64,000 nucleotides of DNA from an uncultured Selenomonas sp. Lineage in GTDB: Bacteria; Bacillota; Negativicutes; Selenomonadales; Selenomonadaceae. Under the pieces are notes generated by a model. The model did not search any database. It was not told the DNA's origin and saw only the letters and a list, made by a program, of their open reading frames with translations. The stretch spans positions 62,001 through 126,000 of the forward strand of contig CACZFT010000003.1 of the NCBI GenBank assembly GCA_902780535.1. Direction: 5' to 3'. Positions 6,019 to 15,060 of the stretch are shown here, piece by piece (the stretch's first letter is position 1; every line of letters begins with the position of its first letter). The translations under genes and the position numbers were made by a program.

Positions 6019-7674
6019 TTATGCCTTGAGCACAGCGCCCGTGCTTGCGGACGTCGTGAGCTTCGCATAGCGGGAAAGATACCCCGTCTTGATTTTCGGC
6101 TCTGGCTGCTTCCAGTCCGCCTTGCGCTTCTTGAGTTCTTCATCGCTGACGTGGAGCTCAAGGCTGCGGTTCGGGATGTCGATGGTGATTTCGTCGCCAT
6201 CCTCAATCAGGGCAATCGGGCCGCCCTCCATCGCTTCCGGCGAGATGTGGCCGACGCAGGCGCCCTGGCTCGCGCCGCTGAAACGGCCGTCCGTGATCAG
6301 GCCGACCTTGAGGCCGCGACCCGTGATGACCGCCGTCGGGTTCAGCATCTCCTGCATGCCTGGGCCGCCCTTCGGGCCTTCGTAACGGATAACAACGACG
6401 TCGCCGTCATGGATGTCGCCGCGCATGATGGCATCGCAGGCTTCCGTCTCGGAGTTGTAGCATTTCGCCTTGCCCGTGTACGTCAGCATGTCCTCAGCGA
6501 CGGCCGACGCCTTGACAACGGCATAATCCGGCGCGAGGTTGCCCTTGAGGATGGCAATGCCGCCCTCCTTGCGATACGGTGCATCGCAGCTGTGGATGAC
6601 GTCGCGATTCAGCACTTCGGCGTTCTTGATGCGGTCGCCGACCGTGCCCGTGACTGTCAGCGCATCCTCGTGGATGAGTCCCTTTGTCGCGAGCTCGTGC
6701 ATGACGGCCGGAATGCCGCCCGCCTCGTCGAGATCGACCATGTGATGCTTGCCCGACGGGCTGAGCTTCGTGATGTACGGCGTCTTGCGAGAAATCTCGT
6801 CAAAGAGCGGCGCGGGCAGCTCGATGCCAGCCTCGTGCGCGATGGCCGTCAGGTGCAGCACCGTGTTCGACGAGCCGCCGATGCCCATGTCGACCGTAAT
6901 GGCATTCTCGAAAGCTTCACGCGTCATGATGTCGCGCGGCTTGATATCTTTTTTCAGAAGCTCCATGACGACGGCGCCCGCGCGTTTCGCGAGCAGGCGG
7001 CGTGCGCCCGTATAAGCGGCCGGAATCGTGCCATTGCCCGGCAGGCCCATGCCGAGGACTTCCGTCAGGGAGTTCATTGTGTTCGCCGTGAAGAGGCCGG
7101 CGCACGAGCCGCAGCCTGGGCAGCATTTTGCCTCAAGTTCGCGCATCTCGTCATCCGTCATATCGCCCGCCGCATACTTGCCAGCCGCCTCGAACGCCTG
7201 GCTCACGCTGACATCGCGGCCGTGGAAGCGGCCCGGCAGCATCGGGCCGCCCGAGACAACGACGGCCGGGATGTTCAGCCGTGCCGCCGCCATCAGCATG
7301 CCCGGCACGACCTTGTCGCAGTTCGGAATCAGCACGAGCGCGTCAAAGCCCGAAGCCATCGTGACGGCCTCGATGGAATCCGCGATGAGCTCGCGGCTCG
7401 CGAGCGAATACTTCATGCCCGTGTGGCCCATCGCGATGCCGTCGCAGACGCCGATGGCCGGGAACTCGATCGGCGTGCCGCCCGCCGCCGCGACGCCGAG
7501 CTTCGCTGCCTCAGCGATGTCCCGCAGGCCGATGTGCCCCGGAATGATTTCATTGAACGAATTGCAGATGCCGACGAGCGGCTTCCTGAGGTCTTCCTCG
7601 CCATAGCCATCCGCATGGAACAAAGAACGATGCGCGCACCGCGTCGCGCCTTTCTTGACAATATCGCTTCGCAT
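6019..7674 (-). CDS. ilvD: Dihydroxy-acid dehydratase
   Basis: The 551-residue enzyme dehydrates 2,3-dihydroxy-3-methyl(iso)valerate to the keto acids of valine and isoleucine synthesis. Fe-S ligand motifs are visible ([10 protein letters not shown] and [18 protein letters not shown]), as are [10 protein letters not shown] and the C-terminal [10 protein letters not shown]. The length is normal for IlvD. The ATG at 7674 (MRSDIVKKG) is preferred over an in-frame codon at 7692, because a GAGGAG ribosome site sits 8 bases before it. It is monocistronic, flanked by its own promoter (7726-7754) and terminator (5961-5996). Confidence 0.97.
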
Positions 7675-7725
7675 AAAGACAACTCTCCTCACATCATGAA
7701 AAATTTCGTGTACTGCTGATTTACA

Positions 7726-7767: not shown

Positions 7768-9560
7768 TCAAAGTGACGCGAGCATCTGCTGATAAGCGGG
7801 CCAGATGCCGGACTGCATGTCGCAGCCGTCACGCATCGCGCGCTCGAGCAGATCGATACCGATGCGCCGCTGGCGGTCGAGGACGTCTCTCTGCTCCGTC
7901 GCGTTCAGCAGCATGCGGTCTTTCTGACAGCATGCATACCAGTCGAGCTGGTGCACTGCGAGATCTTCAAGCCGAGGCTCCATGGACGGGCCGGCATACG
8001 TACGGTGCACGATGCCGATGTTTTCCTGATTCCGCACGGCCGAGAGCAGCATGCGCCACATCGAGAAGACCTGCGGCCTGCTGCCCTCGGCAAAACTGTC
8101 AAGCAAGCCGCTGCAGGCTTCGAAGACCTCCCGCCGCACGAGAAGCCCCGAAAGGCCGTGGGAAGGAATCAGCCCCAGGACGAGCAGCTGATGCCAGAAC
8201 GATGAAAAAGACGTCATGCGCAAATTCTCGCTCGCGGACACAGGAAAATCTGTATAGGGAGAATTCACAGGATGTTTCTGCCCCGAGCCTGAAAGCAGAA
8301 CTGGCAGGGAAAGATCCTGCAGTTCCATGCAGGTCACCATGCAGCGGAGTTTTTCCGGGCGAACCGTCTCGCCTGGCAGCAGCCATTCGACATAGTCTCC
8401 CTGCACAGCAGATGACAGGTTTTCGGGCGCGACAAGCCGGACACCTTTGCGCGCCGCCTCCTGCAGGAACGCCAGCGAACCGCCGCGGCTGCAGATGGGA
8501 ACGATGATTTCATGCCACGGATAGCGCTCTGCAAGCGCTGCATCGAGCGACCTGCGGAACGGTTCATCTGTTTGGGACAGATATCCTCCATAGGTATATG
8601 GGATGATCGTCGATACCATCGGCTCCGACGCAAGAGCCCGCGTCTCTGCGAGCTCTTCTGCGAGCGCCTCACTCGCGGCCATGACATTAGCAAGCACGTC
8701 GGGAATGGCATCCGCGCTGTAGCGGAGCTCCGGCAGCGGCACGCGGCCGTGCAGATTGCAGGGCGCAAAGCCTTCTGTATTCCGTGCAGGTATCTGCCGC
8801 ATGCGGACGTTTTCAAAAAGGCCGGCATATCCGCCGCCCATATACGCATTCACGCCGTACTTCGCCGCGATGTTCGGCCACGCGACAGCACATTTCGACT
8901 GGAACTGCGCCGGGCTCCGCCAGTAGAGGTGCGCGAGTTCCATGCCCTCGCAGAGCGGGCCGTGTGCAGCCCGCATGCCTTCCGGCGTCGGATGGATGAT
9001 TTCGTGATTCCCTTCGCCGAGCCGGAGATGCGTCTGGCGAACCGCCGCACCGTTCACAAGAACTTTCTGCACGCGGCCTGGAACCGTATCCCGCAGGAAC
9101 GGCACGACGAACGGGAATACGCCAGCCGGCAATCCTTTGTCCGATGCAGGCAAAAACATCTGCATGCGCAGAGAGCGGGATTCCGCCACGGGCAGCGTCT
9201 CGAGGATATCGCGGACGGACACGTCGCCCGTCGGCACGAGGAATTCGTCTGCGTCAAGCGGCAGGACGAGATCAGCCTGATACGTATCAGCTGCCATCCA
9301 GAGCAGGCCGTCATCGTCTCGGCCTGCACATGTCGTGCTTCCTCGACATCTCCGACGAGGATTGGCAGCCCTTCCGCCCGCAGTGCCTCGAGGATTTCCC
9401 GCGTGCGATCCGTACTCTTATGGTCGGCAACGATGAGCAAATCCGCAAAACCGAGCGTATGGCGCACGAAGCTCTCGATGATGTCCATCTCGTTCTTGAC
9501 CATCGTGATGGCAACAATCTTTCGTTTCGGCCTTTCTGCCGACAGTGTATCTGAATCCAT
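7768..9560 (-). pseudogene. Glycosyltransferase GT2-family paralogue 1, frameshifted
   Basis: This is the third and last of three tandem paralogues. The start is the ATG at 9560 (MDSDTLSAERPKRK) behind AGGAG. The N-terminal GT-A domain (Glyco_tranf_2_4 type; VAITMVKNEMD, DHKSTDRTREIL) runs in one frame to about 9308. The DxD-containing segment LPLDADEFLVP and the rest lie in the next frame. Paralogue 3 has ATGACGCGCCTGCTCTGG where this copy has ATGACGGCCTGCTCTGG, i.e. one base less. Corrected, it would encode about 597 residues with a second GT-like domain after residue 300. The site equivalent to the poly-G tracts of its neighbours has no G run (YTYGGY). It may be a true pseudogene or a sequence error; the call of the family is firm. 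Confidence 0.8.
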
Positions 9561-9577
9561 CTCCAAAACTCCTGTTC

Positions 9578-11411
9578 TCAAAGCGTTGCGAGCATCTGAC
9601 GATATGTCGGCCAGATACCGGCGGCGAGGTCGATATCGGCCGCCTCCGCCTGCGCGAGCAGTTCCCTTCCAATGGCTTGCTGGCGCTGCCGGATGTTCTG
9701 CTGCTCCTCTGCATCGAGCACGGCCTGATCTTCATGGCAGGCTTCCTGCCAGTCAAGCTGATGCGAAGCGATATCTGCGAGACTGAGCTTCGGCACCGCC
9801 CCCACATAGTCTTCTGTGATGATGCCTATGTTCGTGTATGGCTGCTGCTCGCAGGTCAACAGCAACGTGCGCCATATCCGAAAGGGATGCAGCCTGCCAT
9901 CTGCAAAGCAGTCGAGCAGGCCGCTGCAATCCGCAAAGAGATGTCGGCGCATGAGCACGCCTGCAAGACCGCATGAAGGAATCCCCCCGCTTACGAGCAG
10001 CCGCGATTGCCATGTTCTCCTGCTGATCCGCGCCTGAAAATTATCTGCGTCTGTCACGCCGAGTTCTATGTACGGCGACAGCGACGGAAAGCTGTCCTGC
10101 TTCACCTTCTTGTTTGAAACAATCATCGGGTACGGCATGTCCTGCAGCTCCATGGATGTCACCATGCGGCGAAGTTTTTCGGGGTGCACGGTCTCGCCTG
10201 GCAGCAGACATTCCACATACTTCCCCTGGACATTCGCGAGCAGATTTTCCGGCGCAACGAGGCGGACGCCCCGCCCCATTGCCTCCTGTACGAGTACCCT
10301 GCGAATCACTCCGCCGAAAACGAGGACGAGAATTTCATGCCACGGATACTTTTCGTCCAGCGCCGAATGAAGCGTCCTGCGGAAGGCTTCGTCAGATATT
10401 CCTCCCGCAGAAGACGTCTGTCCCCCCCCCCCCGAAATATGGGACGATGGTCGTTACGACTGGCTGCGTTGCAAGCGCCCGCGTCTCGGCGAGTTCCTGT
10501 GCCAGCGCCTCGCTCGCAGCCATGACGTTGGCAAAAGCATCAGGCACGGTATTGTCGCTGTAGCGGAGCGTCATCATCGGCACGCGACCGCGCAGATTGC
10601 ACGGCGTCCATGAAGCAATGCCTTCGCTCTTGTCCGGCGTCTCGCCATGAGCAATTCGCATAAACGGATTGCGATAGCCGCCGCCCGATGGCGTATGGAT
10701 GCTGTACTTCCCCGCAATATTCGGCCAGCCGACGGCGAATTTCGAGCGGATCTGCGCCGGGCTCCGCCAGTAGAGATGTGCGAGTTCGAGACCGTCACAG
10801 AAATCCCCGTGCTCATTCACGAGTGCCGTCCCATAGCTCCGGATGATCAGGTGGTTTCCCTCGCTGAGACGAACATGCTCGCGCCGGACGAGGTCGCCGT
10901 TGATGATGATTTTCTGACCGCCTTCCGACGTCGCCGCACGCAGCAGCGGCACAGAGAGCGCAAACGTCCCGGAAGGGATGCCATCATCAGACTGCGGCGC
11001 ATAGCGCTGCCAGCGAATCGAACAGACGTCCTTGAGGTCCAGCGCTTCAAGGACGTCACGAACGGACGCTTCGCCCGTCGGCACGAGGAATTCATCTGCA
11101 TCGAGCGGCACGATGAGGTCTGCCTGGTATGTATCGGCCGCTGTCCAGAGCGCCTGCGTCTGCACTTCGGCCTGAATATGTCGCGCCACATCCACGCCCC
11201 CGATGACAATGGGCAGGCCCTCTGCACGCAGAGATTCGAGAATCTCCCGCGTCCGGTCGGTACTCTTGTGATCGACGATGAAAAGCATGTCTGCAAAGCC
11301 GAGCGTATGGCGCACGAAGCTCTCGATGATGTCCATCTCGTTCTTGACCATCGTGATGGCGACAATGTTTTTCCGCGCAGGTTTCCCAGCCCGTTGTCCG
11401 TTCTGTTCCAT
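9578..11411 (-). pseudogene. Glycosyltransferase GT2-family paralogue 2, out of frame at a G12 tract (phase OFF)
   Basis: The ATG at 11411 (MEQNGQRAGK) has GGAGG five bases upstream. The N-terminal GT-A domain is intact (VAITMVKNEMD, VPLDADEFLVP, LYWRSPAQIRSKFAVGWPNI). At 10422-10433 the coding strand has twelve G residues. Translation then enters the wrong frame and stops at 10392, giving about 339 residues. One base fewer (G11) would restore a frame that continues YFGGGGQTSS and joins the open frame to 9578, about 610 residues in all. The lost part is the second GT-like domain (GVRLVAPENLLANVQGKYV, LLPGETVHPEKLRRMV). The tract therefore toggles between a one-domain and a two-domain protein. 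It is best read as a phase-variable gene in the OFF state, not as a dead gene. Confidence 0.85.
10422..10433 (-). repeat. Homopolymer G12 (coding strand) contingency tract
   Basis: Twelve consecutive C on the plus strand, G on the coding strand, lie at the junction between the two domains of glycosyltransferase paralogue 2. G11, G8 or G14 would keep the frame; G12 does not. Confidence 0.9.
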
Positions 11412-11450: not shown

Positions 11451-13226
11451 TCAGAGCGTTGCGAGCATCTGCCGATACGCAGGCCAGATGCTTGTCGAAA
11501 GGTCGGCGCCTTCTTCCTCTGCCTGCCGCAAAAGTTCGTCACCGATGATTTTCTGTGTAGCGGCAATCTGCGCCTGCTTTTCCTCGCTGAAAAGCGCGTG
11601 ATTTCTTTTGCAGAGTGCATGCCAGTCCATCTGATGCACGGCGATTTCTTCAAAGCTCGGTTCCTGCACCGGGCCCGTGTAATCCGCATGCAGGATGAGG
11701 CACCAGTCCGTATCCGTCTGCCGGCTGGCCGCCTCCAGCAAAGCGCGCCAGAGCGGGAGAAAATGAGGCCTCCCGCCCTCGAATCCAGATGCCGCCATGG
11801 TGCTCCAGCATGCTGTAAAAACGCTCTGACGCACGAGCACGCCCGCCAGGCCGCGAGAAGGATATGTCCCGCTCGAAAGGAAATCCTGCCAGGCCTCGAT
11901 GCAGGGAATCACCCGTACATTCTCCTGCTCTGTCACGCCGAAATTGCGATAGGGCCAGCCTTCGGGATATTGTTCGTACGAATCGGACAACAGCAGAGGA
12001 TACGGCAGATCCTGAAGCTCGAAGCACGTCACCATGCGGCGGAGCTTCTCGGGCCGCACTGTCTCGCCCGGCAGCAGCCATTCGACATACTGTCCTTTCA
12101 CATCGGAGAGCAGGCTCTCCGGGGCGGCGAGACGGACACCGCGCTCCAGAGCGTCCTGTACGAGCGCGCGGGGAATGACACCGCCGAAAACGGGGATGAT
12201 GATTTCATGCCACGGATAGTCTTCGGCCAGTGCTGACGCCAGCGAGGCGTGGAACGCTTCGTTTGCAAGAGACGTTTGTCCCCCCCCGAGATACAGCAGA
12301 ATTGTCGTCACGCGCGGCTGCGAGGCCAGCGCGCGCGTTTCTGCGAGCTCGGCCGCCAACGCCTCGCTCGACGCCAGGGCATTGGCGAGCACGTCGGGAA
12401 CAGTGTCCTCGCTATAGCGAAGTGTGGGAAACGGCACGCGGCCAGCCAGAGAGCACGGCTCCCATGCCTTGTCATCCTCGATTCGACGGGGCGTCTCACC
12501 TTTGCGGATGCGCTCGAACACGCCCTGATAGCCGCCGCCCGACGGCGTGCTCAGGCCATACTTTCCCGCGATGTTCGGCCAGCCGACGGCGAATTTCGAG
12601 CAAATCTGCGCAGGGCTCCGCCAGTAGAGATGCGCGAGCTCGAGACCGTCGCAGAAATCCCCGTGATAGCCATGCGCCACCCTGCCTTCGCGGAGAATCA
12701 TGTGGTTTCCTTCGGCAATGCCTGGATGATCCCGGCGGACGACGTCGCCACGGACGATGATTTTCTGCCCCTGCTCCGGTTCTTTTGCGCGAAGCAGCGG
12801 CACGGAGAGCGCGAACACTCCGGCGGGGATGCCGTCATCGGACTGCGGCAGATAGCGCTGCCAGCGGAGCGAGCACACATCATCGATGGCCAGCGTCTCA
12901 AGGACATCACGGACGGACGCTTCATCCGTCGGTATGAGGAACTCGTCGGCATCAAGCAGCACGATAAGGTCAGCCTGATGCTCGTCAGCTGCCAGCCAGA
13001 GCAGGCGCGTCATCGTTTCCGCCTGCGCATGGCGTGCAGCTGCCACATCTTCGATGAGAACCGGCAGCTCCTCTTCTTGCAGTGCCTCGAGGATTTCCCG
13101 CGTGCGGTCTGTGCTCTTGTGGTCGGCAACAATCAGCAGGTCTGCAAAGCCGAGCGTATGGCGTGCGAAGCTCTCGATGATGTCCATCTCGTTCTTCACC
13201 ATCGCGATGGCGACAATCTTCCTCAA
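11451..13226 (-). CDS. Two-domain GT2-family glycosyltransferase, paralogue 3 (in frame, G8 tract)
   Basis: The 591-residue protein is the intact member of the array. Residues 1-110 form a Glyco_tranf_2_4 GT-A fold with VAIAMVKNEMD, DHKSTDRTREIL and the DxD motif LLDADEFLIP. A shared middle region follows (LYWRSPAQICSKFAVGWPNI). From about residue 310 a second, degenerate GT2-like domain begins (VTTILLYLGGGQTS, YPWHEIIIPVFG, YVEWLLPGETVRPEKLRRM). The acceptor is unknown; surface polysaccharide or glycoprotein modification is inferred. The start is a TTG at 13226 whose last two bases overlap the cobO stop (TTGA), so the two are translationally coupled; an AAGGA lies about nine bases upstream. 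Its poly-G run (12280-12287) is in frame, so this copy is ON. Confidence 0.85.
   Translation of the reverse strand: MRKIVAIAMVKNEMDIIESFARHTLGFADLLIVADHKSTDRTREILEALQEEELPVLIEDVAAARHAQAETMTRLLWLAADEHQADLIVLLDADEFLIPTDEASVRDVLETLAIDDVCSLRWQRYLPQSDDGIPAGVFALSVPLLRAKEPEQGQKIIVRGDVVRRDHPGIAEGNHMILREGRVAHGYHGDFCDGLELAHLYWRSPAQICSKFAVGWPNIAGKYGLSTPSGGGYQGVFERIRKGETPRRIEDDKAWEPCSLAGRVPFPTLRYSEDTVPDVLANALASSEALAAELAETRALASQPRVTTILLYLGGGQTSLANEAFHASLASALAEDYPWHEIIIPVFGGVIPRALVQDALERGVRLAAPESLLSDVKGQYVEWLLPGETVRPEKLRRMVTCFELQDLPYPLLLSDSYEQYPEGWPYRNFGVTEQENVRVIPCIEAWQDFLSSGTYPSRGLAGVLVRQSVFTACWSTMAASGFEGGRPHFLPLWRALLEAASRQTDTDWCLILHADYTGPVQEPSFEEIAVHQMDWHALCKRNHALFSEEKQAQIAATQKIIGDELLRQAEEEGADLSTSIWPAYRQMLATL
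12280..12287 (-). repeat. Homopolymer G8 (coding strand) tract in paralogue 3
   Basis: Eight C on the plus strand encode the LGGGQTS segment in frame, at the same domain junction as the G12 tract of paralogue 2. Confidence 0.85.
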
Positions 13227-13789
13227 AACTCGATTCCTTTCTGCGCCTTGATGCCTTTTTCAAACGGATGCTTGACGAGATGCATCTCCGTCACGAGGTC
13301 GGCACGCGCGATGATTTCGGGTGCGGCATCGCGGCCGGTCAGCACGACGTGGAGCGTCTCCGGCCGCAGGTCGAGCAGTGCGAGCACATCGGAGACCTTT
13401 AGCAGGCCGAACTTCACGGCATAATTGATTTCGTCGAGGATGACGAGATCCCATGTTCCACTCGTCAGCGCCTCGCGCGCAGTGGCCAGAGCCTCCTGCG
13501 CAGCTTTTGTGTGCTCCGCCTCAGAGACGCCGCCCTTGTGCGTGAAGCCCTTGCCGAGCTGCCGCACCTCGATGCGTCCGCCTGCGCCGGCCGCTGAAGC
13601 CTTGCCAAGCGCTTCAATGGCGCGCAGCTCGCCATATTTCCAGCCGCCCTTGATGAATTGCAGGATCAGCACGGAGAGCCCATCTCCCCAGGCGCGCATC
13701 GCGAGTCCGAGCGCCGCCGTTGTCTTGCCCTTGCCGTCGCCCGTATGCACGATGACAAGTCCATGCGGCGTTTTTTGTTCCGTTTCCAA
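13223..13789 (-). CDS. cobO: Cob(I)yrinic acid a,c-diamide adenosyltransferase (CobO/BtuR type)
   Basis: The 188-residue product has the CobO/CobA P-loop HTGDGKGKTTAALG near the N-terminus, LILQFIKGGWKYGE, and the Walker-B-like VILDEINYAVKFGLL. It adenosylates corrinoids with ATP to give adenosylcobalamin-type cofactors. The window holds a B12-dependent methylmalonyl-CoA mutase that needs this cofactor. The start is a TTG at 13789 behind GGGGG. It heads an apparent operon with the three glycosyltransferases, an unusual pairing with no obvious functional link. I see no strong promoter hexamers in front of it. Confidence 0.93.
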   Translation of the reverse strand: METEQKTPHGLVIVHTGDGKGKTTAALGLAMRAWGDGLSVLILQFIKGGWKYGELRAIEALGKASAAGAGGRIEVRQLGKGFTHKGGVSEAEHTKAAQEALATAREALTSGTWDLVILDEINYAVKFGLLKVSDVLALLDLRPETLHVVLTGRDAAPEIIARADLVTEMHLVKHPFEKGIKAQKGIEF

Positions 13790-13977
13790 AAAAATCCCCC
13801 TTCCGATTTGTTTCTCTATGATATACTAAGGCTATGCTTCTTTTCCTTCTATATGCAAACATTTGGCAGACATGGATTTCTTCTTTTAGGATAGCAGGAT
13901 TTGGATGGTTTCGCAATTCATCATTTCTGCTCGTCCCTAAACATGGCGGTTATTTCAAGAGCACAACAATTGATGTT

Positions 13978-14019: not shown

Positions 14020-14025
14020 GGAGTG

Positions 14026-14102
14026 CAAGAAGAGTGCCGGGATCTCTACGGGGACCGGTGCGGGAAATGGCTTCCTCCATTATGTGGAGGGGGCCTTTTC
14101 TT
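14026..14102 (+). ncRNA. AbiF-type structured RNA upstream of abiF
   Basis: Transcription should start near 14026. The RNA can fold a first hairpin at 14036-14059 (GCCGG paired with CCGGT, capped by TCTC-TACG-GGGA). A second 11-bp hairpin at 14069-14095 (GGCTTCCTCCA / TGGAGGGGGCC, loop TTATG) is followed by TTTTCTTGTT and looks like an intrinsic terminator. A conserved structured RNA, the abiF RNA motif, is known upstream of abiF genes, and position and architecture fit here. Assignment to that Rfam family is by context and memory; I could not run a covariance search. Confidence 0.75.
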
Positions 14103-15060
14103 GTTGAAAGAATTCAAGACCATCGACGAGCAGATCGATCTGCTCAAAAGTCGCGGGCTCATTATCAAAGACGAACAGGCCGCGAAACTCTACCTGCTGA
14201 CGAATAATTATTACAATATCATCAACGGATATGGAGAGTTCTTTCTGAAACGCGGCGAGCAATACATCGCTGGAACCAGCTTCGAGGAAATCTGGCGGCT
14301 CTACCTTTTTGAGATGGAGATCAAGCAGGCGATCTTCCAAGCCATCATCGCGATGGAACGCCATCTGAAGGCCGTTTTCGCTTATCGTTTTGCCGAGGCC
14401 TATCCTGACAAGCCATATGCCTACCTCAGCATCGAAAGCTACGATAAGCGTTCCACGCTGGACGTCGTCAAAACCATCTCCAGTCTTTCGAAAACTATCC
14501 AGCAACAAAGCCATGTGCATCCGAGCAGCATCGAACACTACGTCCAGAAATACCAGAGCGTTCCCATCTGGGTGCTTGTCAACCACATTGACTTCGGCCA
14601 GCTCCGCTCGATGCTCTCTTACGCTCCGACAAAGATTCAGAACGCCGTGGCACGCGACATGCTTCATTTTGTGAATCAGCATTTCACTATTCCTCGCAAG
14701 AATCCATTCACGCCGGAAATCATGTCCAGCTTCATCGCAAACATCAACGACGTCCGAAATGTCTGTGCGCATAACAATCGGCTGCTCCGTTACAAGTGCC
14801 GCCGCGATAGCAAGTATTGGCAGCCACTGCACGCGAAGTATAAGATTTATCCAGATTCCAACCGTTCTACTGTGTTTTCCGTCTTCCTGTCATTGCAGTG
14901 TTTTCTGACGGTTTCAGAGTATGGAACAATGCACAACAAGCTTCGCAAGCTCATACACAGGCTCGACACACGAGTCCGAACGCTGTCAGTAAAAGACGTC
15001 CTGACGGAGCTTGGTTTTCCAAGGAAATGGCTTTCCTCTACACCAAAAATTTCGTATTGA
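14101..15060 (+). CDS. abiF: AbiF/Abi_2 family HEPN protein (abortive infection / RNA-regulated toxin)
   Basis: The protein of about 319 residues matches the Abi_2 family. The N-terminal segment KTIDEQIDLLKSRGLII and NNYYNIINGYGEFF are typical, and a HEPN RNase motif of RX4H form (RNVCAHNNR) is present near residue 222. HEPN proteins of this family are candidate RNases. Relatives are described as toxins held by an adjacent ncRNA and as relatives of Cas13 ancestors. No ATG exists at the N-terminus. TTG codons at 14101 and 14104 are in frame; GGAGG (14086-14090) lies 10 bases before the first, inside the 3' arm of the upstream hairpin. A GTG at 14023 is in frame but sits before the predicted transcript start. 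Base composition is lower in GC than the flanks, which fits transfer. Confidence 0.85.
   Translation: MLKEFKTIDEQIDLLKSRGLIIKDEQAAKLYLLTNNYYNIINGYGEFFLKRGEQYIAGTSFEEIWRLYLFEMEIKQAIFQAIIAMERHLKAVFAYRFAEAYPDKPYAYLSIESYDKRSTLDVVKTISSLSKTIQQQSHVHPSSIEHYVQKYQSVPIWVLVNHIDFGQLRSMLSYAPTKIQNAVARDMLHFVNQHFTIPRKNPFTPEIMSSFIANINDVRNVCAHNNRLLRYKCRRDSKYWQPLHAKYKIYPDSNRSTVFSVFLSLQCFLTVSEYGTMHNKLRKLIHRLDTRVRTLSVKDVLTELGFPRKWLSSTPKISY

Follow-up and report, generated by a model that had tools for sequence, protein, structure and literature searches.

A poly-G tract that probably switches a tandem glycosyltransferase gene in an uncultured rumen Selenomonas

RESULTS

A G12 tract interrupts the middle gene of a glycosyltransferase array

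The window (the whole stretch of 64,000 nucleotides that was analysed) carries three tandem genes for two-domain GT2-type glycosyltransferases on the minus strand, between cobO and ilvD. The middle gene, copy 2, is interrupted at a tract of 12 G residues, which is most probably a poly-G contingency locus caught in its OFF state. The homologous spot in related genes holds G runs of differing length, both in and out of frame, and this makes a reversible slippage switch of the sugar coat very probable. The tracts compared come from different species with one genome each, apparently metagenome assemblies, so slippage within a population is something that we infer. The array and its flanks comprise the following features.

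13226 to 13825, minus strand: cobO/btuR, the upstream flank of the array
11451 to 13226, minus strand: paralogue 3, an intact two-domain gene of 591 aa with a TTG start
12280 to 12287, minus strand: G8 tract of paralogue 3, at the homologous position and in frame; the sister-species orthologue has G10 and is out of frame
10392 to 11411, minus strand: OFF-state frame of copy 2, 339 aa, with its ATG at 11411 and GGAGG upstream; complete N-terminal GT-A domain, a few aberrant post-tract residues, stop at 10392
10422 to 10433, minus strand: G12 homopolymer tract, the proposed switch (run count, chance estimate and frame table below)
9578 to 10421, minus strand: out-of-frame continuation, about 280 codons of a second GT-A-like domain, open to its end and joined only at G8, G11 or G14
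7768 to 9581, minus strand: paralogue 1, which lacks a G tract at the equivalent site; its frame is broken by the loss of one base near 9307-9309, and the gene is intact in the sister species
6019 to 7692, minus strand: ilvD, the downstream flank of the array, with the order conserved in the sister species

An exact count on the coding (minus) strand gave 12 consecutive G at 10422 to 10433 (C12 on the plus strand), in agreement with the initial annotation. No other homopolymer in the window, of whatever base, is as long as this tract. The G/C runs that come next have 8, 7 and 7 bases, and extrapolation from 4-base runs predicts fewer than 0.001 G/C runs of at least 12 per window. The tract belongs among coding-region homopolymers of at least 8 bases and is well above chance. 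GGG makes up only 11% of the glycine codons here, and when such a gene was recoded with local codon usage, a G run of at least 8 arose anywhere in it in 3 to 4% of trials.

The reading frame was rebuilt for tract lengths from G6 to G15. This revealed that unit changes in length swap the full-length and truncated products of copy 2. At G12 the protein ends after 339 residues at the stop at 10392, as had been claimed; at G8, G11 and G14, the lengths previously named as joining the upstream and downstream frames, it reaches 609, 610 and 611 aa, respectively, with the stop at 9578; and at G7, G10 and G13 it has 366 to 368 aa. The description of the downstream frame as clean and matching paralogue 3 also held. 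Its 280 codons are free of stops (the two alternative frames have 5 and 9), and the C-terminal part that they encode is 50 to 51% identical to paralogue 3.

Homologous tracts differ in length and frame

A sister species, Selenomonas sp. MAG SUG490 (G006), has a collinear array with a fourth copy. Paralogues and sister species carry the following tracts at the equivalent alignment position.

Window copy 2: G12, OFF
Window copy 3: G8, ON
SUG490 copy 3, orthologue of window copy 3: G10, OFF
SUG490 copy 4: G9, OFF
Third species (MAG RUG043, G003): G8, ON
SUG490 copy 2, orthologue of window copy 2: interrupted tract GGGGGGGAGAG (interrupted 7), ON

Both tract length and frame state vary at this one alignment position (12, 8, 10, 9, 8 and interrupted 7), with three genes ON and three OFF. 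The alignment revealed no tract at the homologous position in more distant homologues or in copy 1. A split copy in another genome (G001:C103) is interrupted at nearly the same residue; it has no G tract of at least 7 and therefore was left out of the tract comparison.

Much of the stretch from 7930 to 9130, in paralogue 1, is 95 to 99% identical to the sister species, compared with about 75 to 91% across most of the remaining array, and its dS is 0.15, compared with 0.55 to 0.66 elsewhere in the array. The pattern resembles that of recent interspecies recombination or of a chimeric assembly, and the edge of this high-identity stretch is close to the one-base deletion near 9307-9309. The window also contains an abortive-infection-like gene of the Abi_2 family (PF07751) at 14023 to 15060 on the plus strand.

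Other G tracts in the genome

The whole genome contains only six G runs of at least 9 and 21 of exactly 8. Many of its tracts fall in glycan or surface genes, some of them ON and some OFF.

Radical SAM/SPASM gene (C32): G10, OFF
Gene on C161: G10, OFF
Surface repeat protein gene (L011, C182): G9, OFF, with the tract near the N terminus of a large, repeat-rich, surface-like protein
FkbM gene: G8, OFF
DUF5672 gene: G8, OFF
GT2 gene: G8, ON
GT9 gene: G8, ON
Nucleotidyltransferase gene: G8, ON
Methyltransferase gene: G8, ON

For GT9, the ON state of this genome contrasts with SUG490, whose 91%-identical orthologue is OFF at its own G8 tract. A proposed rule, by which every ON tract of this genome would have a length equal to 2 mod 3, was dropped, as it is broken by the FkbM gene (L049) and by L059 and L061.

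On C32 (L005, L054 and L055), one glycan-type cluster has G tracts of 8, 10 and 8 in its consecutive methyltransferase, radical SAM/SPASM and TylF-like genes. The TylF-like gene appears to be shifted out of frame by the second G8. The sister species yielded no close orthologue of the radical SAM gene. Intergenic runs of G7 to G8 stand in promoter-like spacers at C49:1119 (L057), C81:4021 (L060), C94:2955 (L062), C117:5658 (L138) and C126:2577 (L067); one example reads TTTACG-17 bp-TATAAT, with 16 bp at G7. Two of these runs are upstream of GT9 paralogues, and SUG490 retains the same spacer element, with G8. The intergenic runs are candidate promoter-spacer switches.

If the G12 length were an assembly or sequencing error, copy 2 would simply be intact. 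We regard this as unlikely. The host genome is a 2.94-Mb draft of 223 contigs, the named genomes nearest to it in the public collection are metagenome assemblies of rumen Selenomonas, and the neighboring paralogue 1 also has a one-base deletion that sits away from any tract. That deletion counts against the switch reading as well, since error or decay may account for some of the frameshifts seen here. However, the independently assembled sister species is also out of frame at homologous tracts (G10 and G9), and several further long G tracts in this genome interrupt genes. Even with the wrong length, the position would remain a long, slippage-prone tract.

Selection on the part beyond the tract

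Compared with its in-frame orthologue, the post-tract part of copy 2 has a dN/dS of 0.186 (95% interval, 0.131 to 0.269), and that of copy 3 has a dN/dS of 0.130 (0.076 to 0.203). The first-domain values are 0.085 (copy 2) and 0.094 (copy 3), and the synonymous divergence of the post-tract parts is approximately 0.5 to 0.66. The out-of-frame part of copy 2 has been under purifying selection in the past, and a stretch of 280 stop-free codons with a dN/dS of 0.19 makes an old pseudogene unlikely. Copy 2 might instead be decaying, with a tract that has simply mutated and a second domain that is being lost. Only one of the three window copies is fully intact, and the dN/dS of the second domain of copy 2 exceeds that of the first; however, the ratio is far below 1, no stop has entered the frame, and the orthologue and several homologues are intact, which leaves decay distinctly improbable. 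Long homopolymers also can slip in transcription or translation, but programmed slippage of this kind, giving both products from one DNA sequence, is very improbable, because tract length and frame differ among homologues, and with G8 or an interrupted tract some of these read in frame, so that a constant out-of-frame length is not conserved.

The initial reading of a phase-variable switch in its OFF state therefore draws support from the differing homologous tracts, from purifying selection and from the G tracts in other glycan genes, with slippage as the presumed cause.

The tract lies inside the second GT-A domain

Pfam analysis of the first domain revealed a match to PF13704 (Glyco_tranf_2_4; E = 1.1e-12), with PF00535 above the cut-off. 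The domain retains a nearly invariant DADEF motif (DxD), and by family profile and DxD it is of the GT2 type with a GT-A fold. The Pfam search gave no match for the second part of copy 2. A structure model of the intact paralogue 3, built from an 18-sequence alignment, has a mean pLDDT of 86 and contains two GT-A domains. Residues 1 to 270 match GalS1 (Z, 15.8), and residues 303 to 591 match GT-A structures (best, 5hea, Z, 16.7; SpsA, Z, 14.8), which gives the second domain a GT-A fold. The only segment of the model with a pLDDT below 50 is residues 316 to 318, at the end of the tract-encoded glycine stretch.

The initial annotation had placed the tract at the junction of the two domains. These matches instead put it in the loop that follows strand 1 of the second domain (the beta1-alpha1 loop of the model), about 12 residues in, and the OFF state thus deletes nearly all of that domain. 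The length of this loop is highly variable in the alignment, so extra glycines should be tolerated.

At the position of the SpsA acidic pair, placed by eye rather than by residue-level structural alignment, the second domain of the family reads GxYVxWLLPGE. This suggests that the domain lacks a DxD and is non-catalytic. The proposal that the switch alternates between a one-domain and a two-domain enzyme is plausible insofar as the N-terminal domain is complete with its DxD; the second domain, which seems to have lost this motif, would not necessarily contribute a further catalytic activity.

DISCUSSION

In the contingency-locus reading, slipped-strand mispairing at the poly-G tract would add or remove whole bases. 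Every third length (8, 11 or 14) would yield the long protein of 609 to 611 residues with two GT-A domains, and the assembled length of 12 would stop translation after 339 residues, keeping the whole DxD-bearing first domain and losing the second almost entirely. The truncated form may be inactive or altered, and switching of copy 2 would be expected to change a cell-surface glycan. If true, this would represent G-tract switching in tandem glycosyltransferases of rumen Negativicutes and would imply that members of a commensal gut community hedge their bets with surface glycans, perhaps against phages or protozoa. As a tentative extension, rumen Selenomonas might possess an extensive poly-G phasome made up of glycan genes. 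In the present glycosyltransferase family, the tract would then be maintained in the first loop of a second GT-A domain that is not catalytic, and the first domain would always be made and active, with switching toggling its acceptor or partner module rather than the presence of the enzyme.

A slippage switch is of a known kind and seems little described in this bacterial group. Titles and the openings of abstracts yielded no report of phase variation in Selenomonas, Veillonella, the Negativicutes or the rumen, and a literature search on one-/two-domain switching gave nothing usable. The best-known cases of reversible G-tract switching are those of host-associated Proteobacteria and Campylobacterota, and Campylobacter and Helicobacter have poly-G phase-variable glycosyltransferase genes (contingency loci). 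The locus described here resembles these in having a G tract of at least 8 in a glycan gene, ON and OFF states that depend on frame, and many tracts per genome. Unlike them, it belongs to a rumen Selenomonas (Negativicutes, Bacillota) and is known here from sequence alone.

The best Foldseek matches to the full model are synthases with two GT-A domains, K4CP (2z86/2z87) and heparosan synthase 2 (8vh7). These share the tandem arrangement of two GT-A domains but have only 10 to 11% identity and another domain arrangement (full-length rmsd of at least 15), and they differ from the present family in its seemingly DxD-less second domain. A match to GmaR among PDB sequences was not significant (E = 0.89).

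C-terminal phase variation in Helicobacter canadensis mostly changes a few residues, and one case can join two reading frames (PMC2823697). As in that species, the tract lies deep inside the gene, and a change of frame alters the C terminus without abolishing the protein; unlike in H. canadensis, the OFF state here costs the protein some 270 residues and with them almost an entire GT-A domain. The locus is unusual in its host group and in an OFF state that keeps a complete first domain.
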